Source: Prevotella sp. Rep29 (GTDB lineage: Bacteria > Bacteroidota > Bacteroidia > Bacteroidales > Bacteroidaceae). From it: 64,000 nt of DNA. The notes beneath the pieces are model-generated. The model saw only the letters and a program-made list of their open reading frames with translations, searched no databases and was not told the origin of the DNA. The stretch covers positions 2,604,001 through 2,668,000 of the forward strand of contig NZ_CP047159.1 in the NCBI RefSeq assembly GCF_019551475.1, given 5' to 3'. This document shows positions 1,266 to 46,651 of this stretch, piece after piece. Position 1 is the first letter of the stretch; every line of letters starts with the position of its first letter. Position numbers and translations under genes: made by a program.

Positions 1266-1370
1266 CGTCGTTGAACTATCGTTTTCCAAAAGGGGAACTT
1301 TTAGGCTCCAAAAGGGGAACTTTTAGCTTCCAAAAGTGGCACTTTTAGGACGCGAAAGTGGCACTTTTGG
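1266..1370. repeat. 22-bp-period palindrome array, copy A
   Basis: Four 13-bp cores start at 1289, 1311, 1333 and 1355, exactly 22 bp apart: AAAGGGGAACTTT twice, then AAAGTGGCACTTT twice. A decayed fifth unit, GTTGAACTATC, lies in phase at 1270. Spacers are C/T-rich on the plus strand (such as AGGCTCC). The last unit runs into ACTTTTGGAAA, as in copy B. The array sits in the 1006-1504 gap, 260 bp upstream of the symporter start and 135 bp past the sufC stop. The rest of the gap is AT-rich with no credible gene. The function is unknown. Confidence 0.85.
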
Positions 1371-1504
1371 AAAGCACCTTTTAACTACCTGTAAATCAAA
1401 ATATTACAAAACAGCCTCCACAAACGCGCAGACTGAATAAATATACATTTTGAGAGGAGTGCCGAAGTGCCTCGTGAGGGAGGGTAATGCCTCGCTACCG
1501 ACTC

Positions 1505-2245
1505 CTATTTTTTAATCCAGTCGTAACCTCGCTTTTGTATCTCTTGTGCGAGTTCCATGCCGCCGGTGCGGACGATGCGCCCGTCGTAGAGGATGTGTAC
1601 CACGTCGGGGCGAATCATTTCGAGCAGACGGTCGTAGTGGGTGATGACGATGCGGCAGTTGTCCGCCGTACGCAGTTTGTTGACTCCCTCAGCCACGATG
1701 CGCATGGCATCAACATCGAGCCCCGAATCGGTCTCGTCAAGGATGGCAAGACGCGGTTCGAGCATCGCCATCTGGAAGATTTCGTTGCGCTTTTTCTCAC
1801 CGCCGCTGAAGCCTTCGTTCACCGAACGGCGGGTGAACTTCGAATCGAGTTCCACCACCTGCCGTTTCTCATTCATGAGTTTCAGGAAATCGGCAGCCTT
1901 CAGTTCGGGCAAGCCTTGATATTTGCGCTTCTCGTTGATGGCTGTCTTCAGGAAATTGGTCATCGACACGCCCGGAATCTCCACCGGATATTGGAACGAG
2001 AGGAAGAGTCCTTCGTTGGCGCGGGCGTCGGGTGTCATCTCGAGCAGATTCTTGCCGTTGAACACCGCCGTGCCGTCGGTCACCTCGTAGAGCGGATTGC
2101 CCACGAGCACAGCCGAGAGTGTTGACTTGCCGCTGCCGTTAGGTCCCATGACGGCGTGCGTCTCACCCGGTTTAATCACAAGGTCGATGCCTTTCAATAT
2201 CTCTTTGTCGCCGATACGGGCGTGCAGATTGCGTACTTCTAACAT
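1505..2245 (-). CDS. sufC: Fe-S cluster assembly ATPase SufC
   Basis: A 246-residue ABC-type ATPase of the SUF Fe-S assembly machinery; SufC powers the cytoplasmic SufBC2D scaffold. Visible motifs are Walker A GPNGSGKST (about residues 34-42), signature FSGGEKKRNE, Walker B LAILDETDSGLDVDAM and a switch histidine in VITHYDRLLE. Length fits the family. In related genomes sufB, sufC, sufD and sufS are usually adjacent. Here sufB is 3.8 kb upstream, with foreign DNA between, and sufD/sufS are not downstream, where a palindrome array and a symporter follow. The gene has its own promoter. Its first 137 nt are duplicated at 4776-4916. Confidence 0.97.
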   Translation of the reverse strand: MLEVRNLHARIGDKEILKGIDLVIKPGETHAVMGPNGSGKSTLSAVLVGNPLYEVTDGTAVFNGKNLLEMTPDARANEGLFLSFQYPVEIPGVSMTNFLKTAINEKRKYQGLPELKAADFLKLMNEKRQVVELDSKFTRRSVNEGFSGGEKKRNEIFQMAMLEPRLAILDETDSGLDVDAMRIVAEGVNKLRTADNCRIVITHYDRLLEMIRPDVVHILYDGRIVRTGGMELAQEIQKRGYDWIKK

Positions 2246-2269
2246 ATTTATTCAATCTGTAATTGGCTG

Positions 2270-2301
2270 CAAAATTACAAATAAAAAATGAGCCATGCAA
2301 A
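2270..2301 (-). promoter_or_regulatory. sufC promoter
   Basis: Read leftward, TTTG (2301-2298) and TAATTTTG (2277-2270) are separated by 20 bp, the Bacteroidetes -33/-7 arrangement, 24 bp before the sufC ATG. This would let sufC be expressed although it is separated from sufB. Between this site and the IS30 end there is a GC-rich hairpin with arms GGGGC and GCCCC near 2417-2431. Confidence 0.7.
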
Positions 2302-2448
2302 TTATCCGCAACATTGTTTGTGAGATATGTAGTTCATAAGTTCCAATAAGAAGTGCAAATGGTTTTCAATTGTAAGCTCTCAACCATGTAAAACACTCGT
2401 GGAACGCCGTCGGCAAGGGGCAGACAGCCCCGGCGAGACATTGATTCA

Positions 2449-3488
2449 CCAGTAGCAATACAAAAAAAGCAAAAAGGGAGACTGCTGTCTCCCAAAGATT
2501 AGTTAACTTTGTATTGTAATGATGTATCATCAACTAACCTCACAGCAAAGGTACACAATTTTCGTGTTACGGCAAAAGAATGTAGCGATAAAAGACATCG
2601 CTGATACGATAGGAGTGCATTACAGCACAGTCTATCGTGAGTTGAAACGCAACAAAGGCACACACCATTACCATTATGGTATAGCCCAGCATAAGTGTGA
2701 CGAGCGTAAGCACAGGATGAGGAAACACCGCAAGTTCTCCATAGATATGCGAAAGAGAATCGTCTCACTCCTGGTGTGTGAGCAGTGGTCGCCGGAACAA
2801 ATCAAGGGATGGATGGAAAGGAATGGGGAAAAGTGCGTTTCAGTAGAAACCATCTATCAATATATCCGATTTGACCGCAAGTGCGGAGGAGAACTCTACA
2901 AACACTGCAGGCACCGCCTGAAGAACATCAGAAGGACTGCCGAAACTGCACATACTGCCATAAAGGACAGGGTAATGATAGAACAGAGGGAAGAAGAGGC
3001 TGACGGAACACGATTCGGGGATTTCGAAATGGACACCATCATCGGAAAGGACGGAAAAGGGGCAATCGTTACAATTGTCGAGAGAAGCCGGGACTTCTTC
3101 ATGATGAGAAAACTCAGACACGGGAAAAACGCAAAGCAGCTGGCAAAAACCGTAGTAGCCATGATGACACCGTACATAGGAAGGATAAAAAGTATTACCA
3201 CAGACAACGGAAGTGAGTTCGCTGAGCACAAATACATAGCAGAGAGACTCAAAACAAAGATCTTCTTCACACATCCATACTCATCATGGGAGAAAGGAAA
3301 CATAGAAAACACCAACAAACTCATCAGGCAATATATACCAAAAGGAACTGACTTTAAACATATTTCAGAGGAACAAATAAAGAGAATACAACATAAAATA
3401 AACCGTAGGCCAAGAAAAAAACTGAACTTTTCCACACCTACTGCTGAATTCTTCAAAAAAAATAACATAACTTTGCACTTGCTACTGG
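2449..3488 (+). mobile_element. IS30-family insertion sequence
   Basis: Terminal inverted repeats have the core CCAGTAGCAA (2449-2458) and TTGCTACTGG (3479-3488), and may extend a few bases outward (GATT is shared). The element is about 1.04 kb. Inside the left end, GGGAGAC-TGCT-GTCTCCC (2476-2493) forms a hairpin before the transposase, a common way to block read-in transcription, followed by a TAACTTTG -7 box. No clear short target duplication is visible, so the exact ends are uncertain. Confidence 0.85.
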
Positions 3489-3526
3489 AATCTACAGTTA
3501 CCATTTTTTGCGCCTTTTTAAAATAA
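2519..3526 (+). CDS. IS30-family transposase
   Basis: A 335-residue protein starting MMYHQLTSQQRYTIF. An N-terminal HTH (IADTIGVHYSTVYRELKRNKG) would bind the inverted repeats. The DDE catalytic core shows D in FGDFEMDTIIGK, D in TTDNGSEF and E in WEKGNIENTNKLIRQYIP, so it looks active. The frame runs through the right inverted repeat and stops 38 nt outside the element, so the last residues (about STVTIFCAFLK) are encoded by flanking DNA. An A-run just before (FKKNN) could have slipped: other IS30 relatives end near an NFALA-type sequence, which is present here in another frame. Confidence 0.95.
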   Translation: MMYHQLTSQQRYTIFVLRQKNVAIKDIADTIGVHYSTVYRELKRNKGTHHYHYGIAQHKCDERKHRMRKHRKFSIDMRKRIVSLLVCEQWSPEQIKGWMERNGEKCVSVETIYQYIRFDRKCGGELYKHCRHRLKNIRRTAETAHTAIKDRVMIEQREEEADGTRFGDFEMDTIIGKDGKGAIVTIVERSRDFFMMRKLRHGKNAKQLAKTVVAMMTPYIGRIKSITTDNGSEFAEHKYIAERLKTKIFFTHPYSSWEKGNIENTNKLIRQYIPKGTDFKHISEEQIKRIQHKINRRPRKKLNFSTPTAEFFKKNNITLHLLLESTVTIFCAFLK

Positions 3527-3540
3527 AATGCGTATTTTTG
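3507..3540 (+). promoter_or_regulatory. Promoter of the pectate lyase gene
   Basis: TTTG (3507-3510) and TATTTTTG (3533-3540) are 22 bp apart, 34 bp before the ATG. The -33 box is only about 19 bp outside the IS30 right end, so the element landed just upstream of, or brought in, this promoter. Confidence 0.6.
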
Positions 3541-3573
3541 CATCCGTATTCAATAGAGTAATATATAAGACAT

Positions 3574-4665
3574 ATGAAGAAAAGATTCTATTTATCAGTA
3601 TCGGTAGCCCTTTTGCTCGGTACAGTCCTAGTGTTCTCGTCATGCTCTGACAACGCTGACACCCCCATTGGAGAAGAAGAAAAGCCAGACCTGTCGGTTT
3701 ATGACATGAACCGACCAGTAGGATTCGGAAAAGAGGTGACGGGTAGCAATAACCAGAATCCTGTCCTCGTGACCACAGAAGCAGAGCTGAGGAATGCCGT
3801 GAGCGGCACAGAGCCAGCCACAGTGTATATTCAAGGGCATATTTCACTAAGTACAAGAATCATGGTGGGTTCGAACAAGACGATACTCGGTATTTCAGGC
3901 GCATCAGTAAAAAATGCCAACCGTGACGAGAATGCCGGCATCTTCCTGCTGGTTGGCAGTAATAATGTCATTATACGCAACCTCACACTGCTTGGTCCTG
4001 GCGCATACGATATAGACGCGAACGATGGCGACAACATTTCCTTGACAAATGCCACGAATGTATGGGTAGATCACTGTGACATTCAGGATGGCATTGACGG
4101 CAACTTCGACATTGTGTCGGGTTCAGACAACATCTGCTGTAGTTGGACCCGCTTCCGCTATCTGATAGAGCCCAAGGCTGGCGGCAGCGGAGAAAACGAC
4201 AAGCACTGCAATAGCAATTTGATAGGCAACAGCAATAATTCGGCAGACGTTGACGAAGGTCATCTTAACTGCACGTTTATCAACTGTTGGTGGGGTTCAG
4301 GATGTATAGAACGCTGTCCGCGTGTGCGTTTCGGAAAGGTTCATGTGGTCAACTGCCTATATGACGGCACCGATTACAACTATTGCATAGGCTATGGAGT
4401 ATATAGCAATATCTATGTAGAAAAATGTGCCTTCACAACTGAAGAGGCACAGAAGAACGCTCTTCGTGACTGGCACGGAGATAAAGACTTCAATGTCAAA
4501 ATAACAGGTTGTGTTGGACTGGAAGATACCGAACTGCATCAGGGTGACAGAACTCAGTTCGTACCGACATACGACTATCTCTCATATGATGCCAACAAGG
4601 TTGCTACCATACTGACCGATGCCAGTACAGGTGCAGGTGCCACATTGAATATCCAATACAAATAA
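3574..4665 (+). CDS. Pectate lyase family 1 (PL1) lipoprotein
   Basis: A 363-residue secreted protein. A lipoprotein signal ends VFSSCSDN (Cys about 25), followed by a right-handed beta-helix. Diagnostic motifs are NVWVDHCDIQDGIDGNFDI (the vWiDH block) and CPRVRFGKVHVVNCLYD (catalytic and substrate-binding Arg region). PL1 enzymes cleave polygalacturonate by beta-elimination, using Ca2+. The gene is on the opposite strand to the suf genes, between the IS30 element and a sufC/sufB scar, and it is not near a polysaccharide-utilisation system in this window. It therefore looks like cargo brought into the locus. Fold assignment is strong; substrate is inferred from family. Confidence 0.9.
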   Translation: MKKRFYLSVSVALLLGTVLVFSSCSDNADTPIGEEEKPDLSVYDMNRPVGFGKEVTGSNNQNPVLVTTEAELRNAVSGTEPATVYIQGHISLSTRIMVGSNKTILGISGASVKNANRDENAGIFLLVGSNNVIIRNLTLLGPGAYDIDANDGDNISLTNATNVWVDHCDIQDGIDGNFDIVSGSDNICCSWTRFRYLIEPKAGGSGENDKHCNSNLIGNSNNSADVDEGHLNCTFINCWWGSGCIERCPRVRFGKVHVVNCLYDGTDYNYCIGYGVYSNIYVEKCAFTTEEAQKNALRDWHGDKDFNVKITGCVGLEDTELHQGDRTQFVPTYDYLSYDANKVATILTDASTGAGATLNIQYK

Positions 4666-4670
4666 CGCGA

Positions 4671-4778
4671 TTAACCTACCGTCCCTTCAAGCGAGACGGA
4701 GAGCAGTTTCTGAGCCTCGACGACAAACTCCATCGGCAGTTTCTGCAACACCTCCTTCGCATAGCCATTGACGATGAG
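4671..4778. repeat. Duplicate of the sufB 3' end
   Basis: 108 bp aligned without gaps to 6067-6174. I count four differences, three within the last ten bases around the stop codon and one changing Ala to Val (MEFVVEA for MEFAVEA). Similarity ends at the sufB stop codon. Confidence 0.93.
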
Positions 4779-4916
4779 CACAGCCGAGAGTGTTGACTTA
4801 CCACTGCCGTTAGGTCCCATGACGGCGTGCGTCTCACCCGGTTTAATCACAAGGTCGATGCCTTTCAATATCTCTTTGTCGCCGATACGGGCGTGCAGAT
4901 TGCGTACTTCTAACAT
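4671..4916 (-). pseudogene. Chimeric remnant: SufC N-terminus fused to SufB C-terminus
   Basis: An 81-codon frame. Residues 1-46 equal SufC from MLEVRNLHARIGD through Walker A to LSAVL; the rest equal the SufB C-terminus from IVNGYAKEV to LEGTVG. The join falls at the trinucleotide gag (4776-4778), which sits at both parental breakpoints (2105-2107 in sufC, 6172-6174 in sufB). It lacks the ABC signature and Walker B and cannot be a working ATPase. This is the junction expected from a tandem duplication, or from single-crossover integration of a circle carrying sufB 3' - cargo - sufC 5'. Confidence 0.93.
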
Positions 4917-4920
4917 ATTT
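4776..4920. repeat. Duplicate of the sufC 5' end
   Basis: 145 bp aligned without gaps to 2105-2249 with two silent differences (ttaccactg for ttgccgctg). Similarity ends four bases upstream of the start codon, so the sufC promoter is not part of the copy. Confidence 0.95.
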
Positions 4921-4987
4921 TCTTTATTCTTCTTAGTCTTGATTCTTTTTTCTCACTGCCGTTCGATGGCTCGTCTTTTCATCTCTG

Positions 4988-6043
4988 TCAGAACCTCACT
5001 CCCACGCTGGCGTTGACAATCCAGTCGTCCATTTGCATCTCTACTCCCGAGGCTGAGGAGAAACGGATGTCGTTGACTAGGGCGGCAGCACCCACATACA
5101 CCTGCTTACTCAGGTTATAATGCACCGATGCGCGGGCTACTCCCGTGAGGAAATACTTGTGTTTGGTCTTAACCTCCTTACTGATGTCTGTCTGAAACCT
5201 GCTTCCATCGCTCAGCGGAACATCGACGGCGGCAGTGATGAAGTTCTTATTGAAAAACACCAACAAGGGAGCTGCCGAGATGTGCATCAGCAAACGTCCC
5301 TGATTAGGCGTATAGTTGTAGCCATAACCCAACCCAACGGCAGCCTGATAGAACTCTATTTTCTTCAAGCCGTTCAGCATGGCTGAAGCCATTTGGTTCT
5401 TACCATCCAGGCGGGCGGAGAGAAAGAGGGCGTATGCCGTGAGCGAACCTGCCGACCGTTTTTGTATGACCGACTGTTTCATGGCTGCGGGCAGCGAATA
5501 TTTCTTATAGTTGAACACATAGTAACCATTGATGATGGTAGCCTTCAACCGCGTGTCGCCTTCCTTGATGGGCAGGTTCCCTTCGGTGGCAGTGGCATCG
5601 AGCGTTCCCCTCAAACCTTCTGTGGAATGGCTGCGAAACTCTACTCCGAACCGCTTACCAAACCATGCGAGGTTGAAATCGCTGGAATATCCGTGCGCAA
5701 CGTCGAATGAGTAACTGGCTGACAGCGAACGGTAACCCATCATGATGGCTGTCTGTCCGCTCAGTTTGGAACGCATGTCAACACTGATATCCTGATAAGT
5801 GGGAATATCATGTCCTTCCACACTGGCGCTGATGCCGGCGAAATTGGTTGTCACGGACACTTTCCACCCATGTTTCGGCAATTCAAGGTAAGTCGAATCC
5901 AAATTCCTGAACGCCAAATTGTCGAGGAATGTTTTCACGGTCTTTACAGCCCGCTTTCCCCATGGCGCCTTCTCATTGTCTTGTGCCTGTGCTTCAAAGA
6001 CAGCGAAACACAACAATACTGTTAATATATATATCCTTTTCAT
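4988..6043 (-). CDS. DUF4421-type outer-membrane protein
   Basis: A 351-residue protein with signal peptide MKRIYILTVLLCFAVFEAQAQ, alternating beta-strand patterns and a terminal Phe (VNASVGVRF), as in outer-membrane barrels. It resembles the DUF4421 family of Bacteroidetes, whose function is unknown. The start is 23 bp after the sufB stop, so it is probably cotranscribed with sufB. It occupies the sufB-sufC spacer in one arm of the duplication, where the other arm has pectate lyase plus IS30. The family call is from memory of sequence style; the barrel topology is inferred. Confidence 0.75.
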   Translation of the reverse strand: MKRIYILTVLLCFAVFEAQAQDNEKAPWGKRAVKTVKTFLDNLAFRNLDSTYLELPKHGWKVSVTTNFAGISASVEGHDIPTYQDISVDMRSKLSGQTAIMMGYRSLSASYSFDVAHGYSSDFNLAWFGKRFGVEFRSHSTEGLRGTLDATATEGNLPIKEGDTRLKATIINGYYVFNYKKYSLPAAMKQSVIQKRSAGSLTAYALFLSARLDGKNQMASAMLNGLKKIEFYQAAVGLGYGYNYTPNQGRLLMHISAAPLLVFFNKNFITAAVDVPLSDGSRFQTDISKEVKTKHKYFLTGVARASVHYNLSKQVYVGAAALVNDIRFSSASGVEMQMDDWIVNASVGVRF

Positions 6044-6066
6044 TTATAAAAATGTTGGTTTTCCCA

Positions 6067-7509
6067 TCATCCCACCGTCCCTTCAAGCGAGACGGAGAGC
6101 AGTTTCTGAGCCTCGACGGCAAACTCCATCGGCAGTTTCTGCAACACCTCCTTCGCATAGCCATTGACGATGAGTCCCACCGCTGCTTCCGTCGGAATGC
6201 CTCGCTGGTTGCAATACATGAGCTGGTCCTCGCTGATTTTCGACGTAGTCGCTTCGTGCTCCACGATAGCGGTCTCGTTGTGGATATCCATATAGGGGAA
6301 GGTGTGCGCCCCACAGTCGCTGCCTAAAAGCAGAGAGTCACACGACGAGTAGTTGCGGGCGTTGTCGGCGTTCGACGTCGCACGCACCAGTCCGCGATAC
6401 GAGTTTTGCGAATGACCGGCAGAGATTCCCTTCGAAATAATCGTCGAACGGGTATTCTTGCCGATGTGTATCATCTTCGTCCCCGTGTCTGCCTCCTGAT
6501 AATTGTTTGTTACGGCAACCGAATAAAACTCTGCCACACTGTTGTCGCCACGCAAGACGCACGACGGATATTTCCACGTGATGGCACTTCCCGTCTCCAC
6601 TTGCGTCCATGAGAGTTTGGAGTGCGCACCGCGCAACTCTCCCCGCTTCGTCACGAGGTTCAACACACCGCCCCGACCCTTCTCATCGCCGGGATACCAG
6701 TTCTGAACCGTCGAATATTTCACTTCGGCACGGTCCATCACAATAATCTCAACAATCGCGGCATGCAACTGATTCTCGTCGCGCATCGGTGCCGTACAAC
6801 CCTCTAAATAAGAAACATAACTGTCATCTTCCGCCACAATCAGCGTACGCTCAAACTGCCCCGTGTTGCGGGCATTGATGCGGAAATAGGACGACAGTTC
6901 CATCGGACAACGAACGCCCTTGGGAATATATACAAACGAACCGTCGGAAAAGACCGCACTGTTGAGCGCCGCAAAGAAATTGTCGCGATAGGGAACCACC
7001 GTCCCTAAAAACTTACGCACCAACTCGGGATGCTCTTGAACGGCTTCACCGATGCTGCAGAAAATCACTCCCAACTCGGAAAGTTTCTCCTTGAAAGTAG
7101 TCTTCACGCTGACCGAGTCCATGATGGCATCGACAGCCACGCCACTCAATGCCAGCCGTTCTTCGAGAGGAATGCCGAGTTTGTCGAATGTCTTTTCCAG
7201 TTCGGGGTCTATCTCGCCCGTCCCCTTCGGCTTCTGCGCCAACGGGTCGGCATAATAAGAAATGTCTTGGTAATCTATTTCTGGCAATCGGACGTGCCCC
7301 CACGAAGGCTGTTCGAGCGTCTGCCAATAGCGAAACGCCTTCAGACGGAACTCCAACAGCCATTCCGGCTCGTTCTTCTTGGCTGAAATCAGGCGCACAA
7401 CATCCTCGTTCAAGCCCTTCTCGATAATCTCGGTCTTGACGTCGGTGGTGAAACCGAACTCATATTTCCGTTCTGCAACCTGCCGTACAAATCTATTATT
7501 GTCGTTCAT
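6067..7509 (-). CDS. sufB: Fe-S cluster assembly protein SufB
   Basis: A 480-residue SufB, the scaffold subunit that partners SufC and SufD in cytoplasmic Fe-S cluster assembly. Typical blocks are [11 protein letters not shown] near the N-terminus, [65 protein letters not shown], and near the C-terminus [19 protein letters not shown] and [17 protein letters not shown] sequence ([12 protein letters not shown]). Length fits. It is the first gene of a leftward unit followed by the DUF4421 gene. A strong AAGGAG lies at 7527-7522, unusual in this phylum, although 14 nt from the ATG. The last 108 bp are duplicated at 4671-4778. Confidence 0.97.
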
Positions 7510-7541
7510 AAAAAATGAAAACTCCTTATAAAAAGTGGCTA

Positions 7542-7549
7542 CAAAAATA
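7542..7549 (-). promoter_or_regulatory. sufB -7 box
   Basis: TATTTTTG read leftward, about 33 bp before the sufB ATG. A TTTG at the expected -33 distance is not obvious. Confidence 0.5.
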
Positions 7550-7590
7550 CTAAAAAAGATTGAGAAAATAACTATTCCTCCCCAATTATG

Positions 7591-9582
7591 TCATTCCTTC
7601 GCAGCTTTCTCCGTCGCCTTTCGTGCTTTTCGCTCCGCTTTCTCAGCAGCCTTTTGCGCCTTCCGCGCTGCTTTTTCAGCCGCTTTTTGCTCCTTTCGTT
7701 CAGCCTTCTCCAATGCCTTTCGCGCCCTTTCCTCCTTTCGCGCAGCCTGCTCTGATGCTTTTTCGGCTTGCTTTTTTGCCACCTTCTCTGCCTTCATCCG
7801 CAACAACTCCTCTTCGGTCATTTCCTGTCCGCTCTTGTCCTTGTGCTTATAGAACATGATACCGGGATTCGTTATCTTCATATCCCGCATATTGTCGGTA
7901 TCGGTGAAACTGAACGAACAGTAAAGCGCCCTACGCTTGCCCAGCTGCATCAGGTTGCCGGCAGCTATGGCGCCGTCGCTCTTGATGTCTGCCCTCAGAT
8001 TCCGAATGTGGACTCCCCCATAGCTGCAGTCGTCAATCTGCGCATCGACCGTTCCGATGGGTAACTTCCCTCCCTGTGTCCGACGTATCTTCGCCGTGCG
8101 CGACTTCGATATGTCAATCTTGAAACTCGCCTGACAAGCCAGATTTCCCAACTTGGGAAGATCCACCACTTGCGACAATTTGAAGGCATCGCTCTTCACA
8201 CTGCCTGTGAGATATTTATGAAGATTGTCTATGCCTAACGAGAAGTTCAGGCTTCCTGCTGCTGTGTGAAGCCACCCTTGAAAGTCCAACCGCTTCCAAT
8301 GCACGTCGAAACTTCCCTTGGCATGGAGATTTCCCAACTTGCGAACTTGCCCCATCATCAGCTTTTTCACCACAAACTGATTGATGATTTTCTCCTTCAT
8401 ATCGCCCTTCACACGCAGGTCGCTCACATTGAAATGCACACCCAACTTCTTCTTGCCTCTCAGTTGCGACACCTTCCCTGCACCGCTCGCCGTGAGCCGT
8501 CCGTCATCCGTCTTCACACGCACGCCACTGAACGACAGCTCGTCCTCCGAACCACGCATCCGCGCCTGGAAATTAAGCGGCAGACTGAAATGTTTCAGCG
8601 GAGGAGAGAAAGCTCTCGAAATATCCTTGAGATAAGCACGGCCGGAAATATTACCGGTAGAAAAACTCAAACGCCTACCCGTCTTTCTATTGGGCAGCTG
8701 CACCTGCGCGTCAGCTATTTCTACGACCGTTGACTTCTGCTGCAAAAATATATCCTTGAAAAACAAACTGTCGTGATAGAAATCTATCGTCGTGCGCAAA
8801 TCGGACACATCTATTCCTCCTGTCTTATCTATCAATCGGCATTTCTCAAGGACAGCCCTTACCGAGTCTTTCTTCAGGAAATCAATCTCCAATTTCATGT
8901 CTGCCGTCATGTTGAGATGCCCCACATCGAAGAAACCACGATGAGGCTTCCCCACGTTTTTGCGCGGCTTCTTATTGTCCGTCTTCACGTTCAGACCCTC
9001 AATCTCCACCGCATGCCTGTTTTTGCGTCGCTTTTTATACGTCACTTGCCGCAACGAAAATTCCGATGAGTTATACTGCGCACACACGTCTTGCAACTTG
9101 ACATTGCTGATATCAATCTCCATTTTTCTCGACTGCTTATGCTTTCCCGCATCCCTACCGCCAGCCAACGAATCTATGAGGAACTGATAATTGGCGGGTT
9201 CGTCGGGCGATGGTTTCAGCAAGAGCGCATTCAGTCCCTTTATGTTGATACGCTTCACAATGACCTTCTTTTTCAATAGCGCCCAGAGATCCACATCAGC
9301 AACCAGCACATCCATATCCAACATTTCACGATGCTCCTGGTCCTCTATCGTCAGACCATGCAGAAACACATCATAACCCCAGAAATCAATCGATACACTG
9401 TCCACCTTCACACGCGTATTCAGTCTTTCAGACAGCAATCCGGTCGCCTTCCCCATCATGTAATTCTGCACAGCCGGTGTGTTCAGCAAATAGGCACCGA
9501 TTGCTGTCAGCACGACTATCACGACCGAGAAAATTCCCAGTCCTTTCAATATCTTGAATACGATTCTCATCCAGTTTTTCAT
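7591..9582 (-). CDS. AsmA-like envelope protein with Lys/Ala/Glu-rich tail
   Basis: A 663-residue protein. One N-terminal membrane helix (about residues 12-31) precedes a long beta-rich periplasmic part with the AsmA-type opening TPAVQNYMMGKATGLLSERLNTRVKVDSVSIDFWG. AsmA/TamB relatives are bridge-like proteins linked to lipid transport between membranes. The final roughly 80 residues (after ...SGQEMTEEELLRMKAEK) are made almost only of Ala, Lys, Glu and Arg and should form a charged helix; this tail is not a usual AsmA part. A TACCTTTG box reads leftward at 9611-9604. It is divergent from ychF. Family is fairly sure, function inferred. Confidence 0.8.
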   Translation of the reverse strand: MKNWMRIVFKILKGLGIFSVVIVVLTAIGAYLLNTPAVQNYMMGKATGLLSERLNTRVKVDSVSIDFWGYDVFLHGLTIEDQEHREMLDMDVLVADVDLWALLKKKVIVKRINIKGLNALLLKPSPDEPANYQFLIDSLAGGRDAGKHKQSRKMEIDISNVKLQDVCAQYNSSEFSLRQVTYKKRRKNRHAVEIEGLNVKTDNKKPRKNVGKPHRGFFDVGHLNMTADMKLEIDFLKKDSVRAVLEKCRLIDKTGGIDVSDLRTTIDFYHDSLFFKDIFLQQKSTVVEIADAQVQLPNRKTGRRLSFSTGNISGRAYLKDISRAFSPPLKHFSLPLNFQARMRGSEDELSFSGVRVKTDDGRLTASGAGKVSQLRGKKKLGVHFNVSDLRVKGDMKEKIINQFVVKKLMMGQVRKLGNLHAKGSFDVHWKRLDFQGWLHTAAGSLNFSLGIDNLHKYLTGSVKSDAFKLSQVVDLPKLGNLACQASFKIDISKSRTAKIRRTQGGKLPIGTVDAQIDDCSYGGVHIRNLRADIKSDGAIAAGNLMQLGKRRALYCSFSFTDTDNMRDMKITNPGIMFYKHKDKSGQEMTEEELLRMKAEKVAKKQAEKASEQAARKEERARKALEKAERKEQKAAEKAARKAQKAAEKAERKARKATEKAAKE

Positions 9583-9679
9583 CTGTGTCGCCTTCTATCC
9601 GTGCAAAGGTATAAATAATTCCGCAAATGAACAATAATATTTTTTTTTTCGACAAGCCTCTTAATCCAAAATTTTTATG

Positions 9680-9687
9680 TACATTTG
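9680..9687 (+). promoter_or_regulatory. ychF -7 box
   Basis: TACATTTG, 26 bp before the ychF ATG; the upstream T-run at 9641-9649 may serve as the -33 region. Confidence 0.55.
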
Positions 9688-9713
9688 CACACAATTAGAA
9701 AACTCTGAAAGAT

Positions 9714-20086: not shown

Positions 20087-20200
20087 TTGTCTGATGGTAA
20101 ACTCCGTCTCCTTTGCTTTTCCCGAATACGAAGCAGGCAAGCACCGCATCTTAAGAAATAAACGAATTTGTTTCGTTCTCCAACCGATTTTTCGTACCAC

Positions 20201-20356
20201 TACATAAGGTACTGACGCTCGACAATAAAAATAAAATCAGGCTTTTATTTTGTATTATCCTCGCTTAATCGTACCTTTACATAAGGTACTGACGCTCGAC
20301 AATAAAAATAAAATCAGGCTTTTATTTTGTATTATCCTCGCTTAATCGTACCTTTG
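20201..20356 (+). promoter_or_regulatory. Tandem 77-bp promoter duplication upstream of the DEAD-box helicase
   Basis: 20201-20277 and 20278-20354 are perfect tandem copies. Each has AAGGTACTGACGCTCGAC, an inverted repeat AAAATAAAA-TCAGGC-TTTTATTTT, and CTCGCTTAATCG before the -7 box. The proximal copy gives TTTG (20326-20329), 19 bp, TACCTTTG (20349-20356), a good promoter 36 bp before the ATG. In the distal copy the -7 box is TACCTTTA. At the copy junction GTACCTT-TACAT-AAGGTAC (20271-20289) forms an operator-like palindrome. The rest of the 20035-20392 gap holds a terminator and AT-rich sequence. A related element precedes the gene at 30273. Confidence 0.85.
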
Positions 20357-25647: not shown

Positions 25648-25770
25648 AAAGTGCAACTTTCACTGCCTAAGAGTTGAAGTTTCGCGCCCTCAAAGTTGAA
25701 CTTTCGCATTCCCAAAGTTCAACTTTTGGAAAACAGCCCCCTGACTTTTGCATCCAGAAAGCTCCGATTT
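25648..25770. repeat. 22-bp-period palindrome array, copy B
   Basis: Cores start at 25648 (AAAGTGCAACTTT), 25670 (AGAGTTGAAGTTT), 25692 (AAAGTTGAACTTT) and 25714 (AAAGTTCAACTTT), exactly 22 bp apart. Two decayed units continue in phase at 25736 and 25758 (GAAAGCTCCGATTTCC). Units three and four are exact reverse complements. The array lies in the 1.5-kb gap 25105-26632, which has no credible gene. The gap also holds CATCGGGGTTT at 25563-25573, a hairpin at 25822-25845 and a candidate small RNA at 26146-26312. Confidence 0.88.
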
Positions 25771-37540: not shown

Positions 37541-37684
37541 AAAGCAAGGCTATCCTTGTTTTTCGGCTGCAAAGATAATGATTTATTCTTAATTACCGAA
37601 ATTTGTGTGTCCATTTTTGTTTTCAACGGTTTATTCCAAAACAAATTGCGAGGTTTGATGCCATTATTGGACAATAACTCCCCC

Positions 37685-38455
37685 TCATCTAAATTTCACG
37701 ATACAATCAATGCAAATCGGACGTGAACTGACATCATCAATAAAAACATTTGCGGGGTGCATATCTTCGAGTGCCAAGCGTTCTGAAATATAGCTAATGC
37801 CTTGTCCGTCACAATTGTCGCGAAATCCCTTTGCCGCCACCATATTGTCTATTTCCTCTTTCGTTGCCAACCTCTGGCAACGAACATATGGCTGCGTAAG
37901 GATAATACGCATGAGGTTATCACTATCACGTGTAAATCCAATTACATGCATAGCTGTTTCGGGGAATAGGTAATTATGAAGCACGATGGCATCAAGAGCC
38001 TTTTGGGTAGTTGAATAAATAGAGGCACGCTCTTTGATGACAGAGGTATCGCCATCCCTATAATAAACTTTTGCTTCAGCACCTTGAGCTATCTTCGGTC
38101 CAAAGGTGTCAATGAGAATCTGTTCCGAATTGTCAACCCACAATTGTGCGGCTTTAGCCCACTGCTCTATGAGCGTCTCCTGATATTCATCTATTTCCCA
38201 GTTTGCCGGGCTTCCTTTGCCGCCTTCAGCATTGCGACCTGCCGTAATGCTTGCTGTCGCGTAGCTTGCGACGATGGCCGCCCCAATGAGGACCTTACCT
38301 GCCGTGCAGAATCCTGCATGCTCTGGAGAATCGTAGCGATAAAAGTCTCTTGTCCCATTCTGTATTTCATTAATTAGTTGATCTATCTGCAGAAGAGTTG
38401 ACTGCCTGAAACCATCAGTCTTTATTGCTAAATAAATGTCTTTCAGCTCGTCCAT
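37685..38455 (-). CDS. Polyvalent-protein-type Ser/Thr/Tyr kinase domain protein
   Basis: About 256 residues from MDELKDIYLAIKTDGFRQ. The C-terminal half has the kinase-like pattern of phage or mobile-element polyvalent proteins: glycine-loop-like IAQGAEAKVYYRDGDTSVIKE (Lys), hinge IILTQPYVR, catalytic-loop-like LEDMHPANVFIDD and metal-site-like ICIDCIVKF. The promoter TATCTTTG at 38489-38482 sits almost on an earlier ATG (38479), so the Met at 38455 is preferred; the earlier start would be leaderless. It stands alone downstream of no operon, beside two tRNAs, a usual place for mobile DNA. Confidence 0.72.
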   Translation of the reverse strand: MDELKDIYLAIKTDGFRQSTLLQIDQLINEIQNGTRDFYRYDSPEHAGFCTAGKVLIGAAIVASYATASITAGRNAEGGKGSPANWEIDEYQETLIEQWAKAAQLWVDNSEQILIDTFGPKIAQGAEAKVYYRDGDTSVIKERASIYSTTQKALDAIVLHNYLFPETAMHVIGFTRDSDNLMRIILTQPYVRCQRLATKEEIDNMVAAKGFRDNCDGQGISYISERLALEDMHPANVFIDDVSSRPICIDCIVKFR

Positions 38456-38481
38456 CCTTCCGTTTGATAAGTTTATCATTG

Positions 38482-38489
38482 CAAAGATA
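38482..38489 (-). promoter_or_regulatory. -7 box of the kinase-like gene
   Basis: TATCTTTG read leftward. It decides the start choice of the gene downstream. Confidence 0.6.
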
Positions 38490-38538
38490 GTTGAATCTTT
38501 ACAAACCACCAAATCTTTGACATAGAATTATACGTTTT

Positions 38539-38592
38539 GACACGCCGATTCGCCCCTGCGGGAAGACGATGTGGGGAGCCGGATGGCGTGTC
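38539..38592. repeat. Inverted repeat upstream of the kinase-like gene
   Basis: GACACGCC (38539-38546) and GGCGTGTC (38585-38592), 8 bp perfect arms with a GC-rich 38-bp loop that can fold further. No T-run. Together with array C it fills the gene-free stretch 38456-39191. Confidence 0.55.
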
Positions 38593-38812
38593 GGCTTGAA
38601 CGAAATGGCGAGGGTGATAGTTAGTGTTCATATTGCAACTAAAAAACGCCCGTTTTGGCGCGCCCGATGCAAATGCTTGCGATATTTCAAAAATAAAATC
38701 TTGCGGTCGGGAAAACCGCCTGTTTTCAGCAACATCCGTAATCGTCTGACACAAAGAATCTTACAGCGGCGATGCCGCTTTTTCGCTGCGAAAAGATGAT
38801 GATGGGCGCGCG

Positions 38813-38891
38813 AAAGTGCCACTTTCGCACCCTCAAAGTTCAACTTTCACCCTCCAAAAGTCTAACTATTACCTCCCAAAAGTGCAACTTT
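38813..38891. repeat. 22-bp-period palindrome array, copy C
   Basis: Cores start at 38813 (AAAGTGCCACTTT), 38835 (AAAGTTCAACTTT), 38857 (AAAGTCTAACTAT) and 38879 (AAAGTGCAACTTT), all exactly 22 bp apart, with C-rich spacers (CGCACCCTC, CACCCTCC, ACCTCCC). Half-units flank both ends. The 16-mer AATGCTTGCGATATTT lies 141 bp upstream of the first core and recurs before array D. The gap has no credible gene. Confidence 0.88.
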
Positions 38892-39094
38892 TGCGCACAG
38901 AAAAGGCGATTTCTTGCAACATTTATGCGAAACCGACAGCAAAACCGTATATCTTTCCACGAAACATACCATCCCTCTCGCCACTCATTTTCTAAAATCC
39001 CAAAAATCGCTTGTCAAGATATTTGCCGAAAAATTAACGCTTTTAACTTAAAATCCGCCCCGATTTTAACAATTCGCGAGTCCGATGATGCAAA

Positions 39095-39121
39095 AATTCG
39101 GGCGGATACACCGATCCGCCC
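39095..39121 (-). terminator. Terminator of the small membrane protein gene
   Basis: Perfect 8-bp stem GGGCGGAT (39100-39107) / ATCCGCCC (39114-39121), 6-nt loop, followed leftward by GAATTTTTG. It lies 71 bp past the stop of the gene at 39192. Confidence 0.7.
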
Positions 39122-39191
39122 CTAAACGAAGCAAACAATGGAGCATGAGACCTACCCTCCTGAAGAATAAAAAAACGTAGCTTTTTTGTCT

Positions 39192-39518
39192 TTAGTATGG
39201 TGATAATCCCATTTCAATGCGCTGCTGACGAGTGTCACCTCCACCCTTTGTACAACTGCCAAGACAGTTCCCAAGAAACAATAGGACAAAAAAGATGATA
39301 CAGAGCATGGCAGAAATGCTGAATGAATTAAACAGATGGTGTCCGCTTGTCTCTTCATCCTTGGTAAAGATATATGCCACGGTACCAAAGATGATGGCGA
39401 GTATGATGTAGTATTTGAAACTACTTAATCCCACTCCATATCCTACAAAAAAAGCCGAAGCGATACTTATTATCGCAATGGCAGCAGATGCCTTTTCTAA
39501 TATTTTTTTGAAGTTCAT
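39192..39518 (-). CDS. Small multi-pass membrane protein
   Basis: 108 residues, start MNFKKILEKASAAIAIISIASAFFVGYGVG, three or four hydrophobic helices, Cys pair in LGNCLGSCTKGGGDT. No family recognised. Single gene with a downstream terminator; AT-rich compared with housekeeping neighbours. Confidence 0.65.
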   Translation of the reverse strand: MNFKKILEKASAAIAIISIASAFFVGYGVGLSSFKYYIILAIIFGTVAYIFTKDEETSGHHLFNSFSISAMLCIIFFVLLFLGNCLGSCTKGGGDTRQQRIEMGLSPY

Positions 39519-39651
39519 ATATTATAAATCGAGAAATTATTGTGGCTGCATCCGTATATTACGTGAGTGTTGGCTTTTGCTTATCGTTAAAGGTATTATA
39601 AACCACAACTCGAATGCAAATATAGGAATTTATTTTGAAAAACAAAAAAAA

Positions 39652-39685
39652 TCTCCCACCTCCCGAGAGAAAAAGAGGTGAGAGA
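39652..39685 (-). terminator. Terminator after the 39819 gene
   Basis: TCTCCCACCTC (39652-39662) pairs with GAGGTGAGAGA (39675-39685), one mismatch or wobble, and a T8 run follows leftward. The 130 bp between it and the gene contain GACAGAG-ACCTA-CTCTGTC (39810-39828) over the stop codon; no gene is seen there. Confidence 0.8.
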
Positions 39686-39818
39686 CTTCTTGAGTTTGGA
39701 TGGATAGGTTTTTACTTCCATCTCCAGCGTTCGATGTGCAATCCTTCTGACTGTGCCGCGCTAAAAGGCGGACGTCTTTGCACCAATGCGGGCAAAGGTG
39801 TTGCCCGGGGACAGAGAC

Positions 39819-40256
39819 CTACTCTGTCGTGTTTGTCTTAGGCGCTGCAGCGAATCCCGACGTCTGCTTCAGATTCAATGTCGTGGACTCGTTGGTCAGC
39901 GTGAGGTTTTCGCCAGACAGGGTGTAGTTGAAGGTCACGTCTTGCAACTTGATGGTGCCCGTTGTCTCGTCGGTCGGCTCAATAACCGCCTGACCGCTTC
40001 CCATCGTGTACCATTTCTCGTCTTCCTTGAACTTGTAGTAAGTGCGGAAGGTGCCCGCTTCCGTCAGGTCGATCACCACGCCGCTGTATTTCTCCAGCTG
40101 AGCGCTGTCGTTATTGAAGAATGCGGCGATGTTTTCCACTTCCCATTGTTGGTTGATGACCGGTCCATCGTGATGATTGTTTACTGCCATCGTGCTCACT
40201 GCGAACATTGCCAGCGCTGCCAGCATCATGCTCTTCAAATTCATTACCTTTTTCAT
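39819..40256 (-). CDS. Secreted lipocalin-like small protein
   Basis: 145 residues with signal MKKVMNLKSMMLAALAMFAVSTMA and one beta-rich domain: QQWEVENIAAFF, YSGVVIDLTEAGTFRTYYKFKEDEKWYTMGSG, GTIKLQDVTFNYTLSGENLTLTN. The KWYT plus layered strand pattern resembles the lipocalin-like Bacteroidales proteins and also the edge gene at 63589-64000. Function unknown; ligand binding is a guess. A leftward CAAATATA -7 box lies at about 40369-40376. Confidence 0.8.
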   Translation of the reverse strand: MKKVMNLKSMMLAALAMFAVSTMAVNNHHDGPVINQQWEVENIAAFFNNDSAQLEKYSGVVIDLTEAGTFRTYYKFKEDEKWYTMGSGQAVIEPTDETTGTIKLQDVTFNYTLSGENLTLTNESTTLNLKQTSGFAAAPKTNTTE

Positions 40257-40458
40257 AATCGTCTTACTTTAATAATTTAATAATAGATATTGATTGATTA
40301 AACTCTTGCCGCCCGAGAAGGAACGTGCGGCAGTTTTTCTCTGTTGCCTCCATCGGCTTGACTTCGGTGCAAATATATGTTCGACTCTCTCTTTCTGCAA
40401 ATAATTGCTTTATTTTTCCAATAGATTAACATATTTATTCATGTTTCGCCCCAATATA

Positions 40459-40501
40459 TACATAAATATACGGAAATGGACATGTTTCTACATAAATATA
40501 C
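40459..40501. repeat. Direct repeat 30 bp apart upstream of the DUF4298 promoter
   Basis: TACATAAATATAC occurs at 40459-40471 and 40489-40501, followed at different distances by GGAAAT. A 30-bp step is about three helical turns, as for paired activator sites. It lies in the 40257-40661 gap, whose other content is a TGCCGC/GCGGCA hairpin near 40309-40334 and the promoter at 40613. Confidence 0.5.
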
Positions 40502-40612
40502 ATCTGTATGGAAATCGAAATACTTATTTGCATAATCGCCTTCCCGACAGCGAAAGATGTATAAATGTGTTATCGTTTGGCGGTTCTGTTCCGAATAAAA
40601 ACGGGCTTTTAT

Positions 40613-40643
40613 TTTGTTTTGTGCCCACTTCGTTGTATTTTTG
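40613..40643 (+). promoter_or_regulatory. Promoter of the DUF4298 gene
   Basis: TTTG (40613-40616), 19 bp, TATTTTTG (40636-40643). The -33 region is part of an inverted repeat AATAAAA-ACGGGC-TTTTATT, like the helicase promoter. Confidence 0.7.
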
Positions 40644-40661
40644 CATCAAATCATTCATGCC

Positions 40662-40985
40662 ATGAAGAACAACAATGAACAAATAGAGCGCATACAGGCG
40701 ATGGAAGAACGGTTTGACCAGCTTTCGCAAGCGGCAGAAAGGCTGTCAACTGCCCTGAAACAGTATGAGGAGATGCAAGAGGCGGCGACCATACTTGGCG
40801 AATATTATGGCAGCGATGAGTGGAAAAAGGACTTCGCTGACGATGAAAAGGGGTTGTTGCCTGCCGATTTGAAGCGTGGCGTCTTGTCGGAAGACGGCGT
40901 GTGGAACCTGCTCTCCGACCATCACGACCTCATCGCCCGCATGCAAAACCTTGTGAAGCGAGGTCGCAATAATAAGAAGATGTGA
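40662..40985 (+). CDS. DUF4298 domain protein
   Basis: 107 residues from MKNNNEQIERIQAMEERFDQLSQ. A coiled-coil N-terminal half is followed by LGEYYGSDEWKKDFADDEKGLLPADLKRGVLSEDGVWNLLSDHHDLIARM, the DUF4298 pattern. Function unknown. The start at 40662 follows the promoter; an earlier in-frame ATG (40614) lies inside it. Confidence 0.85.
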   Translation: MKNNNEQIERIQAMEERFDQLSQAAERLSTALKQYEEMQEAATILGEYYGSDEWKKDFADDEKGLLPADLKRGVLSEDGVWNLLSDHHDLIARMQNLVKRGRNNKKM

Positions 40986-41082
40986 CTTCGATTTGAAGAC
41001 AAAACGCTGCCTTGCCCCTTAGGCGCACTTGTTCAAGATGGGCGGCACCTCAGCACTAAAAATGAAATTTCTTTATGATACA

Positions 41083-41116
41083 GGCTTATAATCTCGGAAA
41101 TTATACTTAATTTTGC
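41083..41116 (+). promoter_or_regulatory. leuS promoter with block shared with rpoN
   Basis: TTATAATCTCGGAAATT (41086-41102) and -7 TAATTTTG (41108-41115). Thirty of 34 positions match the rpoN promoter at 17631-17598. An inverted repeat CTTG-TT-CAAG lies further upstream near 41029-41038. There is no ordinary TTTG at -33. Confidence 0.75.
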
Positions 41117-41156
41117 GGGGTAAAAAGAATTTTCAAGAAACCGGAACTTTACAAAT

Positions 41157-44051
<2,895 letters not shown>

Positions 44052-44100
44052 TTCGGACGGCAAAAAGAGAAACGAAAAAATAATCGAAGACAGAAAATAT

Positions 44101-45042
44101 ATGAATTTTACCAAACAACAATTCAAAAGTGAACTGAAAGACTATGCCGTCATCACACTGGGCTCGGTCGTTTACGCACTGGCATGGACATTCTTTCTGC
44201 TCCCCTACCACATCGTGTCGGGCGGCGTAACAGGTCTGTCTGCCATCGTTTTCTACGCCACGGGCATCCCCCTTCAGTACACCTATTTCGGCATCAATGC
44301 CATCCTGCTGGTCTTTGCGCTGAAAATTATCGGTTTCCGATTCATGACAAAGACCATCTACGCCACCTTCATGCTCTCGTTTATGCTCAGTTTCACACAG
44401 ACACTGGTGGCTGACGAGAACGGCAATCTCATCAAACTGATGGGCGAAGGCAACGACTTCATGTCGCTCCTCATCGGCAGTATCATGCTCGGTGTGGCGC
44501 TCGCCGTCGTGTTCCTCAACAACGGCAGCACGGGCGGAACGGATATCATCGCCGCTTGTATCAACAAATACAAACCCATTTCGCTCGGACGCGTACTCAT
44601 CACCGTTGACCTGTGCATCATCGGAAGCTGTCTTTTCATCCCTGCCTTCGGCGAACTCTTCCAGCGCGCACAGATGGTGGTGTTCGGACTTTGCACGATG
44701 GTGGTTATGAACTTCATGCTCGACTACGTGATGAACGCGCGGCGCGAATCTGTGCAATTCCTCATCTTTTCGAAAAAATACAACGAGATAGCCAAAGCCA
44801 TCGGTACCGAAACCTCGCACGGCATCACGCTGCTCGACGGACAAGGCTGGTACAGCGGACAGGAGACGAAGGTGCTCTGCATCCTTACCCGCAAGCGTGA
44901 GAGCGTTGCCATCTTCCGCATCATCAAGACCATCGACCCCGACGCATTCGTCTCGCAAAGTTCGGTCATCGGCGTCTATGGAAAGGGATTCGACGCCATC
45001 AAAGTGAAAGCCAAGAAAACAGAAGAAAACAAACCCGCATGA
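44101..45042 (+). CDS. YitT family membrane protein
   Basis: 313 residues. Five or six membrane helices (about 15-205) contain [32 protein letters not shown] and [19 protein letters not shown] cytoplasmic DUF2179 domain (about 215-300) has [28 protein letters not shown]. Function unknown; the C-terminal domain is thought to bind a small ligand. It overlaps rdgB by 4 bp and follows leuS by 49 bp. Confidence 0.95.
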
Positions 45043-45689
45043 AAAAGATTGTTTTTGCGACGAACAACAAGCATAAGCTGGAGGAGGCACAGCAAATCCT
45101 CGGCAACGAGTTCAAAATCCTCTCACTTGCCGACATCAATTGCCATGAAGAACTGCCCGAAACTTCCGATACGCTCGAAGGAAATGCCTACCAGAAGGCA
45201 GAATATGTGTGGAGCCATTATTTCAGAGACGAGAAGATACCTGTCTTTGCCGACGATACGGGACTCGAAGTGGAGGCACTCGGAGGCGAACCAGGCGTAC
45301 TCTCTGCCCGCTATGCCGCTATCGACGGCGACCCGCAGCAAAGCCACGACAGCGAAGCAAACATGAAAAAACTGCTCCGCAAACTCGATGGCGAAGACAA
45401 CCGGACAGCCCGCTTCCGCACAGTCATCTCATTAGTAATCGACGCCAGTGATACAACGACAGAAATTCCTCTTTATATGGAAAAAAGATGGGAATTCGAG
45501 GGCATCGTCAACGGACAGATTATCCGCGAGCGTCGCGGCACCACCGGCTTCGGATACGACCCCATCTTCCAGCCCGACGGCTACGAACAGACATTCGCCG
45601 AACTGGGAGCAGACATCAAAAACCAAATCTCTCACCGCGCACGAGCCATGCAAAAGCTCGCGGAGTTCCTGAAGGACAAAAACCTGTAA
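45039..45689 (+). CDS. rdgB: Non-canonical purine NTP pyrophosphatase (RdgB/HAM1)
   Basis: 216 residues. The HAM1 signatures are [39 protein letters not shown] and [23 protein letters not shown]. It hydrolyses dITP, ITP and XTP to keep them out of nucleic acids. There is a short insert near residues 105-150. Last gene of the leuS operon by overlap. Confidence 0.97.
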
Positions 45690-45773
45690 TCATCATTATA
45701 CAACCCCGTCCGGTCTAACACCCGACATCGGGGTCAATCGGTGCATCAACCCGCCCGAAACAAAAAAGTGTAA

Positions 45774-46223
45774 CTAATAGTGTGACAATATCTTCTTCGC
45801 CAATGCCCTCTGCCGCTCTTTCTTGGTAGGCTTCGAAGGCATCAGTGCATCAAAGACTCCATTGACAGCCCCTTCTATGAATCCGCAAAAGACAGCCTCT
45901 CCCACCGTGTCATAATATTGGTTGCATTCAAATAAAGGGGGAGGTGCAGGAACCCAAAACGGACCGCAACGAAATGGCGAGACATCAACTTCGTTCACCA
46001 AAGCATATTGATTTTGCAACATGACACTTCCAGTCGATTCTTGTCCGGGAGGAGACAGCAAATAGCTCTTTTTCCACAATGAATAAATGGGCGGCACGAT
46101 TTTCACTGCCTGGTAGACAGAATCGCCTTGCCATGCGTAGTTCTTCAGTATCAGCTGCTGGGCTCCCGTTTTTCCAAATCCTATGAACAGATAAAGGGAA
46201 AGAATAAACGCCAATCTTCTCAT
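45774..46223 (-). CDS. Exported hypothetical protein
   Basis: 149 residues from MRRLAFILSLYLFIGFGKTGA (signal peptide). The rest has proline/aromatic stretches (FRCGPFWVPAPPPLFECNQYYDTVGEAVFCGFIEGAVNGVFD) and a basic C-terminus. No family recognised. The start at 46223 begins the signal peptide and follows a leftward TATCTTTG box (46251-46244). Convergent with rdgB. Confidence 0.65.
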   Translation of the reverse strand: MRRLAFILSLYLFIGFGKTGAQQLILKNYAWQGDSVYQAVKIVPPIYSLWKKSYLLSPPGQESTGSVMLQNQYALVNEVDVSPFRCGPFWVPAPPPLFECNQYYDTVGEAVFCGFIEGAVNGVFDALMPSKPTKKERQRALAKKILSHY

Positions 46224-46529
46224 ACCAACATAATTTACTGGTGCAAAGATAGTTATTTTCTTTTTAAAAACAAAAAAGCGCAGGTTTATAGTTGAAAAGA
46301 CAAAGAAGGGAAAAACGGAAATCATTAAAGAAAACTGGACGGGCGGAAAAAATTTCCTGCCGTTTTTTTACAATTATTAACGCGAATGCTTGCGATATTT
46401 TCCACCGAACTTTCCCTCGCACCCGTACAGGCAAACCTCGCGCATCGGGGTTTGTAAAACATTATCAGTCAACTTATTAAAAGAAACACACACGAAAACT
46501 ATTTACAAAATAATCAAGAATATTCTCCA

Positions 46530-46651
46530 AAAATGCAGGTTTTTGCCCCTGAAAGTGGCACTTTGGGAAGCGAAAGTGCCACTTTTGACCTCCAAAACGG
46601 GAACTTTTGCGTCCTGAAAGGGCAACTTTGGGGAGGTCAAAGTTCAACTTT
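46530..46651. repeat. 22-bp-period palindrome array, copy D
   Basis: Cores start at 46552 (AAAGTGGCACTTT), 46573 (AAAGTGCCACTTT), 46595 (AAACGGGAACTTT), 46617 (AAAGGGCAACTTT) and 46639 (AAAGTTCAACTTT): steps of 21, 22, 22 and 22 bp, with a weaker unit at 46530. The first two full units are exact reverse complements. Upstream are AATGCTTGCGATATTT (46385-46400, shared with C) and CATCGGGGTTT (46443-46453, shared with B). The remainder of the 46224-47020 gap is AT-rich with no credible gene; a TAATTTTG -7 box lies at 46899-46906. Confidence 0.9.

Follow-up and report, generated by a model that had tools for sequence, protein, structure and literature searches.

Arrays in the window

The window analysed here, a stretch of 64,000 nucleotides (nt), comprises bases 2604001-2668000 of the single-contig, 2.73 Mb genome of Prevotella sp. 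Rep29 (own genome, G000) and carries four arrays of a 13-bp dyad repeated at a step of 22 bp, the first of which belongs to a composite intergenic element that is dispersed over the chromosome and combines the array with terminal dyads and a second palindrome, module B, at a fixed distance. The features are given in window coordinates.

1223..1238, plus strand: T-type dyad CTGTATATTCATACAG at the left terminus of the full-length element, from reading of the sequence and an nhmmer match over model positions 3-171
1267..1279, plus strand: dyad 0, GTCGTTGAACTAT, degenerate but in phase, one 22-bp step ahead of the first unit; a degenerate unit is likewise placed in other copies
1289..1367, plus strand: array 1, four 13-bp dyads at a 22-bp step
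1382..1406, plus strand: module B, a 25-bp palindrome-like block with 4 mismatches to TAACnnnTTGATnATCAAnnnGTTA, centred 33 bp away from the centre of the last dyad
1434..1447, plus strand: right terminal T-type dyad TGAATAAATATACA, from reading of the sequence
25648..25726, plus strand: array 2, four dyads at 22 bp, one with 2 mismatches; weak in-phase match at 25758
38813..38891, no strand assigned, the two being near-equal (69.5 versus 66.6 bits): array 3, four dyads at 22 bp, the third decayed
46530..46651, plus strand: array 4, six dyads including a decayed first one, with steps of 22, 21, 22, 22 and 22 bp

The positions and steps of all four arrays, including the single 21-bp step in array 4, agree with those given in an earlier, sequence-only reading of the window, and only array 1 forms part of a full-length element. 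Within the window, AAAGTKSMACTTT is matched at 25 sites with at most two mismatches (16 inside the four arrays and 9 outside), compared with a shuffle mean of 7.3, and none of 100 shuffles reached 25. Throughout G000, with the reversed pattern serving as the control for dyad and module B counts alike, exact dyads number 387 versus 3 and exact 22-bp pairs of AAAGTNNNACTTT number 221 versus 0, which establishes the proposed 22-bp phasing well beyond controls. The same reading had described the plus-strand spacers as C/T-rich in all four arrays, which is true of arrays 2 (20 of 27 bases) and 3 (21 of 27) and untrue of arrays 1 (14 of 27) and 4 (22 of 44); its suggestion of one common array orientation is not supported, as elements occur in both orientations across G000.

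Anatomy of the composite element

An nhmmer search over 1.06 Mb of G000, part of which had been fetched for having dyads, returned 74 non-overlapping rows, a number that counts one window array twice and includes one form without units; 46 of them span the full 172-bp core. The composite element is bounded on either side by T-type dyads (TGCATAAAYATACA) and contains a degenerate dyad, as a rule four AAAGTKSMACTTT dyads (A dyads), and the 25-bp palindrome B (TAACnnnTTGATnATCAAnnnGTTA). Aligned copies begin with the T-type dyad TGCATAAACATACA, followed 22 bp on by a second T-type dyad; after the degenerate unit come A dyads, in most copies four, separated by 9 bp, and TGGAAAGC, module B (TAACnnnTTGAnnnTCAA, then TTAC) and the last T dyad complete the order. 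With up to three mismatches allowed, the left T dyad is present in 46 of 46 full-length copies, a partly circular figure given that the left end of the model defined full length, and the right T dyad in 45 of 46. Pairwise identity among these copies has a median of 0.74 (range 0.59-0.93), and in anchored profiles of the G000 copies the dyads have a higher information content than the spacers. Variants with one or no A unit also occur among the nhmmer rows, and weak inverted ends, TGAATTCGACGA, were seen by eye in 16 hand-picked copies.

The dyads themselves were examined in 310 unit matches, which include chance matches near elements and 50 units outside any AAAG-n5-CTTT type with a G/C centre; 127 are AAAGTTSAACTTT and 75 are AAAGTGSCACTTT. 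The centre base is G or C in 295 of the 310, which is compatible with a symmetric dimer. Positions 6 and 8 hold T-A in 139 units, G-C in 80, T-C in 46 and G-A in 23. A TT half-site is paired with a GG half-site in 44 units (for example AAAGTTCCCCTTT), compared with four TT/TG hybrids, and this linkage of half-sites within units may stem from the copying of whole units. Separately, a G-rich GGGGGAGGGTTAGGGAGGGGCTCC-like repeat, in this or the complementary form, adjoins several G000 elements, for instance near 1615969 and 2342833.

Placement along the chromosome

All 74 rows fall outside the genes that a codon-usage script predicts. The earlier view of noncoding phased dyads, which are in genome-wide excess over controls, is supported. 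Relative to the orientation of the element, the neighbouring genes of the G000 rows are arranged ++ in 20 cases, -- in 20, -+ in 17 and +- in 14, with 3 unknown; G000 shows no preference for gene direction. In a density sample of 40 stretches of 20 kb, taken irrespective of dyads, 39 elements were found, which extrapolates to about 130 per genome. Their distribution is more even than expected from uniform placement: the variance-to-mean ratio per stretch is 0.34, and none of 20,000 uniform simulations was equally even. Likewise, the first 40 element positions (39 gaps) give a coefficient of variation (CV) of 0.70 (P = 0.009), and a single gap is shorter than 7 kb. In the congener G163, gaps below 5 kb are similarly too rare across 81 positions (3; P = 0.0001), and the gene contexts there are -+ in 17 cases, ++ in 15, -- in 10 and +- in 5.

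Spacing and dyads in relatives

A sample of 0.42 Mb of G163, mostly around known dyads, contains 51 elements with the same layout as in G000 and a second dyad type in addition. The order TTAT, on either strand and with T being AAACATATATGTTT, is shared by 28 of the 51. The spacer is 9 bp in 140 of 144 adjacent steps even where the dyads switch type, and as dyads of 13 and 14 bp are mixed, the centre spacings are mostly 22.0, 22.5 or 23.0 bp. The strict 22-bp period that had been described is therefore a consequence of the 13-bp length of the dyad, and what is conserved is not the period as such. Direct repeats near GGAAAAATAGAACAAT flank both sides of 30 of the 51 G163 elements, 27 in one same orientation; 66 of the 88 GGAAAAATAGAACAAT-like matches in the G163 sample lie within 200 bp of an element, and the reversed pattern has 16 matches in all.

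Dyads are also numerous in several other relatives, with counts of 176 in G163, 140 in G400, 52 in G278, 30 in G399, 25 in G117 and 23 in G401 (controls 0-1), and low in G006 (9; control 2) and G398 (5). A count of dyad pairs in 20 short stretches was too small a sample to reveal the period in most species. When one genome per species was scanned for three exact units, 5 places were found, records near the own genome possibly having been left out. By eye, AAAGTGSCACTTT was seen in G117 and G278 to share a single 22-bp phase with TCCAGCCCCTGGA- and TCTAGAGTCTAGA-like dyads, the TCCAG- and TCTAG-type dyads of these two species also being sorted by eye. A contig binned as Prevotella sp. RGIG4794 (L031) bears the same element, that genome having only 5 dyads; the contig may be misbinned.

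The species pair G117 and G278 allows conservation to be compared within the element. In eight orthologous arrays, identical alignment columns, which are not independent of one another, amount to 384 of 415 in dyads, 171 of 216 in spacers and 737 of 900 in flanks; without the units that are exact in either species, the dyads (222 of 247) are still better kept than the spacers (P = 0.0017). The more distant comparison of G163 with G000, between which 93 reciprocal best hits have a median identity of 65%, offers three informative gaps, each flanked by conserved genes on its two sides and occupied by an element in one species or both. The first has elements in both species; in the second, G163 has the element where G000 has an array of different dyads; the third has an element in G000, the corresponding G163 gap measuring 110 bp. 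None of the three is a clean empty site. G163 (L208/L120) and G000 (L049), otherwise distant species, share a 177-bp stretch that is 83% identical.

Module B and its distance to the array

Of the 73 scorable G000 elements, 58 have a B-like site (at most 6 of 18 mismatches) at 20-50 bp from the last dyad, and in 56 the two centres are exactly 33 bp apart; the reversed B pattern was found beside 8 of the 73, never at 33 bp. The corresponding figures for G163 are 36 of 51 elements with a B-like site, 32 of these at 32-33 bp, and 7 of 51 with the reversed pattern, none at that distance. Of 181 genomes of the genus, the own genome included, 174 have more matches to TAACNNNTTGATNATCAANNNGTTA, with up to three mismatches, than to its reversed control, with totals of 3146 versus 439 (hand-copied counts); in 117 genomes of other families the excess is smaller (635 versus 379).

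Four further species (G010, G377, G337 and G318) were represented by 20 B loci picked for good B matches, the array side being set by 22-bp self-similarity. A perfect dyad with 5-bp arms occurs 32-33 bp from B at 10 of the 20. AAA/TTT tracts pooled over these loci peak at 15, 26, 37 and so on to 103 bp from B, with a power of 279 at 11 bp; when the anchors were jittered by up to 11 bp, none of 300 runs reached this value (maximum 102). Taken singly, the species have 11-bp powers of 64 (G010), 27 (G318), 9 (G337) and 1.5 (G377), so that A/T phasing from B, combined with other dyads, is clear in G010 and G318 and weak in G337.

The 22-bp period beyond the main element

A tandem scan blind to sequence was applied to 24 unselected congener stretches (0.44 Mb), a set that excludes L186, L187, L196, L198, L199 and L201 as taken from G163 or G117 or lying near known dyads, and to 10 stretches (0.16 Mb) of other genera of the family. 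In the congeners 22 bp is the commonest tandem period, with 13 regions in 8 of the 24 stretches compared with about 1 in shuffles, one shuffle control of the scan being flawed in that complexity was tested on the original letters; a 14-bp period accounts for 8 further regions, 4 of them in one stretch. The other genera again have 22 bp as the commonest period, with 4 regions of unrelated sequence in 3 of 10 stretches (L274, L276 and L282) and 3 regions of 33 bp. Over the resulting 17 period-22 regions, the dyad score beats all 30 shuffles in 10 and does not in 7. Outside the main element, G000 has 12 period-22 regions and 7 with a 33-bp period, and 8 of the 12, at 7 loci, form a AAATTCAGTGAATTT family; outside its elements G163 has more regions of 18-bp period (6) than of 22 bp (5).

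The AAATTCAGTGAATTT-like family is found at L052, L058, L060, L073, L093, L098 and L102, and several of its arrays continue with an A-like dyad and AAATCAAGTTGAATT-like dyads. In the window, a further intergenic 22-bp tandem array of unrelated sequence lies at 58315-58400, and a 77-bp tandem duplicate of two copies with 97% matches at 20192-20355. The next long open reading frame to the right of array 4, at 47202-49418, encodes a protein with a PorZ N-terminal domain (type 9 secretion system).

Discussion

The retention of spacing in some relatives that have different palindromes suggests an undescribed protein-bound DNA element. A literature search found no description of these elements, the only match to the 13-mer being a paper on Daphnia tandem repeats, and to our knowledge little has been learnt about how Bacteroidota chromosomes are organized or about their intergenic repeats. 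We propose, at about even chances, that the arrays are dispersed composite intergenic assembly sites for an oligomeric DNA-wrapping protein and are rapidly gained and lost. The protein, the wrapping and the role are what we infer, from an observed anatomy and geometry, intergenic placement, over-even spacing in G000 and, in one species pair, stronger conservation of dyads than of spacers.

An oligomeric protein would assemble on double-stranded DNA at the intergenic element, each 13-14-bp dyad being bound by one dimer and the near-constant 9-bp spacer setting successive dimers about two helix turns apart. Recognition of double-stranded DNA by such an oligomer is indicated by the phase that is kept despite sequence change, the symmetry that extends into the dyad centre and the lack of a gene-direction preference in G000. 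The sequence-only reading had placed the dyads on one face of the DNA for cooperative binding of a dimer; the geometry fits, and helical phase is kept while the dyad sequence changes in several relatives. That reading did not include the composite element with its T dyads, module B and, in G163, end repeats. Because A/T tracts recur in half-sites every 11 bp or so in several species, the DNA may be curved and wrapped around the protein, and module B, in phase with the array, could provide the anchor for another protein that is more conserved or for the onset of assembly. Rapid gain, loss and remodelling of the element would explain how species come to differ in element positions and dyads yet retain the geometry. 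As to its role, chromosome organization is a first guess, made because the copies are evenly spaced; local regulation or selfishness may apply instead.

Several observations weigh against this proposal. B-like sites with at most 5 mismatches are lacking within 150 bp of window arrays 2, 3 and 4, and A/T phasing is absent in G377, one of the four further species examined. The exact 22-bp pair occurs in just 12 of 398 genus genomes, the own genome included, with the control pattern in 3, and at least 20 dyads are found in 3 of 249 family genomes, namely the own genome, G477 (23) and G568 (20). An element is present in G000 on 4 of the 24 gene sides that have one in G163, compared with 11 of 143 sides without. 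Such a patchy exact dyad and so few shared positions are unlike a fixed essential site. The evenness in G000 was measured relative to uniform placement and not to the available intergenic gaps, and the G163 elements are, taken together, clumped and leave long stretches empty (CV 1.30); there, unlike in G000, divergent gaps outnumber convergent ones (17 versus 5). The non-independence of the G117/G278 columns also tempers the conservation argument.

The leading alternative, which we consider rather unlikely, is a selfish miniature mobile element, similar to a miniature inverted-repeat transposable element (MITE), in which the dyads and module B would be recognition sites of a trans-acting recombinase. 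The rather sharp ends, the layout fixed in many copies, the occurrence in both orientations and only between genes, the terminal T dyads and weak inverted ends in G000 and the GGAAAAATAGAACAAT-like direct repeats bracketing 30 of 51 G163 elements are all in its favour. Moreover, the few positions common to G163 and G000, the bracketing repeats and the forms with one or no unit show that copies come and go, and hence that a mobile component may exist. On the other hand, neither an autonomous partner nor a target duplication was found; the Y1 transposase (PF01797) was not found in G000 or G163, no search being made for other transposase families, nor was the exact A-type pair found in viral contigs. 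In the records searched, one window element had no plasmid match and one other G000 element no phage match, and a mobile element lacking target immunity would not usually be spaced as evenly as these are in G000.

A purely mutational origin, with slippage behind the 22-bp period, template switching behind the perfect palindromes and no function involved, would account for the prevalence of this period among unrelated sequences in unselected stretches of congeners and other genera; it is made improbable by the better preservation of dyads than of spacers in G117 and G278, the fixed distance to module B and the single fixed order in 28 of 51 G163 elements. A role at the RNA level, in which the array would act within transcripts as a series of small hairpins and to which the 5-bp hairpin possible at each dyad might point, is very improbable given the indifference of G000 elements to gene direction, the phase lock between array and module B, the symmetry at positions 6 and 8, in what would be the hairpin loop, and the lack of an Rfam match at the window arrays.

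The proposed assembly sites may, in a more speculative extension that we hold to be unlikely, represent a family-wide intergenic class of which the geometry is inherited and the sequence is not: phased dyads with 9-bp spacers, tied to module B, would serve as evenly spaced chromosome-organizing sites for a wrapping protein with a fast-changing sequence preference. If true, sites that keep their phase and B distance while their dyads turn over would provide a direct handle on the reader protein and a system in which to test rapid co-evolution of protein and DNA, and the roughly 130 copies in G000 would make a pull-down or DNA affinity purification sequencing (DAP-seq) readily interpretable.

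Comparison with known systems

A possible relation to the BrickBuilt MITEs of Porphyromonas gingivalis had been raised in the earlier reading. The 19 elements of that group contain 1 to 22.8 copies of a 23-nt repeat without spacers, between a leader and a tail with IS5-like terminal repeats, and the likeness lies in a dispersed intergenic Bacteroidota element with short tandem repeats and non-repeat flanks (PMC4596501). The intergenic location is common to both, none of the 74 rows being inside a predicted gene. The element described here differs in having mostly four 13-bp dyads with 9-bp spacers (a 22-bp step rather than a 23-nt spacerless unit), module B at 33 bp and about 130 copies. The IS5-like repeat GAGACCTTTGCA was found, at up to one mismatch, within 400 bp of none of the 74 elements, and with up to two mismatches it has 6 matches in the window compared with 6.2 expected; the suggested relation is thus not upheld.

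Repetitive extragenic palindromic (REP) sequences and bacterial interspersed mosaic elements (BIMEs), which are associated with REP-associated tyrosine transposases (RAYTs), are likewise dispersed extragenic palindromes in high copy. The present elements are, in contrast, phased arrays of several dyads, and a search for the Y1 transposase (PF01797) matched neither G000 nor G163, compared with 5 of 14 control genomes. The binding sites of Noc, SlmA and MatP are short palindromes dispersed over the chromosome, as are the dyads here, but are single sites of conserved sequence, whereas the present ones form arrays with dyads that differ by species. Lrp/AsnC octamers and plasmid iteron arrays involve sites about two helix turns apart and DNA wrapping, iterons being direct repeats at origins; this two-turn spacing is shared by the present arrays, to which no such protein has been linked. 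Apart from the A/T-tract phasing, which was not seen in G377, the dyads lie in helical phase, as in a phased operator array for a dimeric protein.

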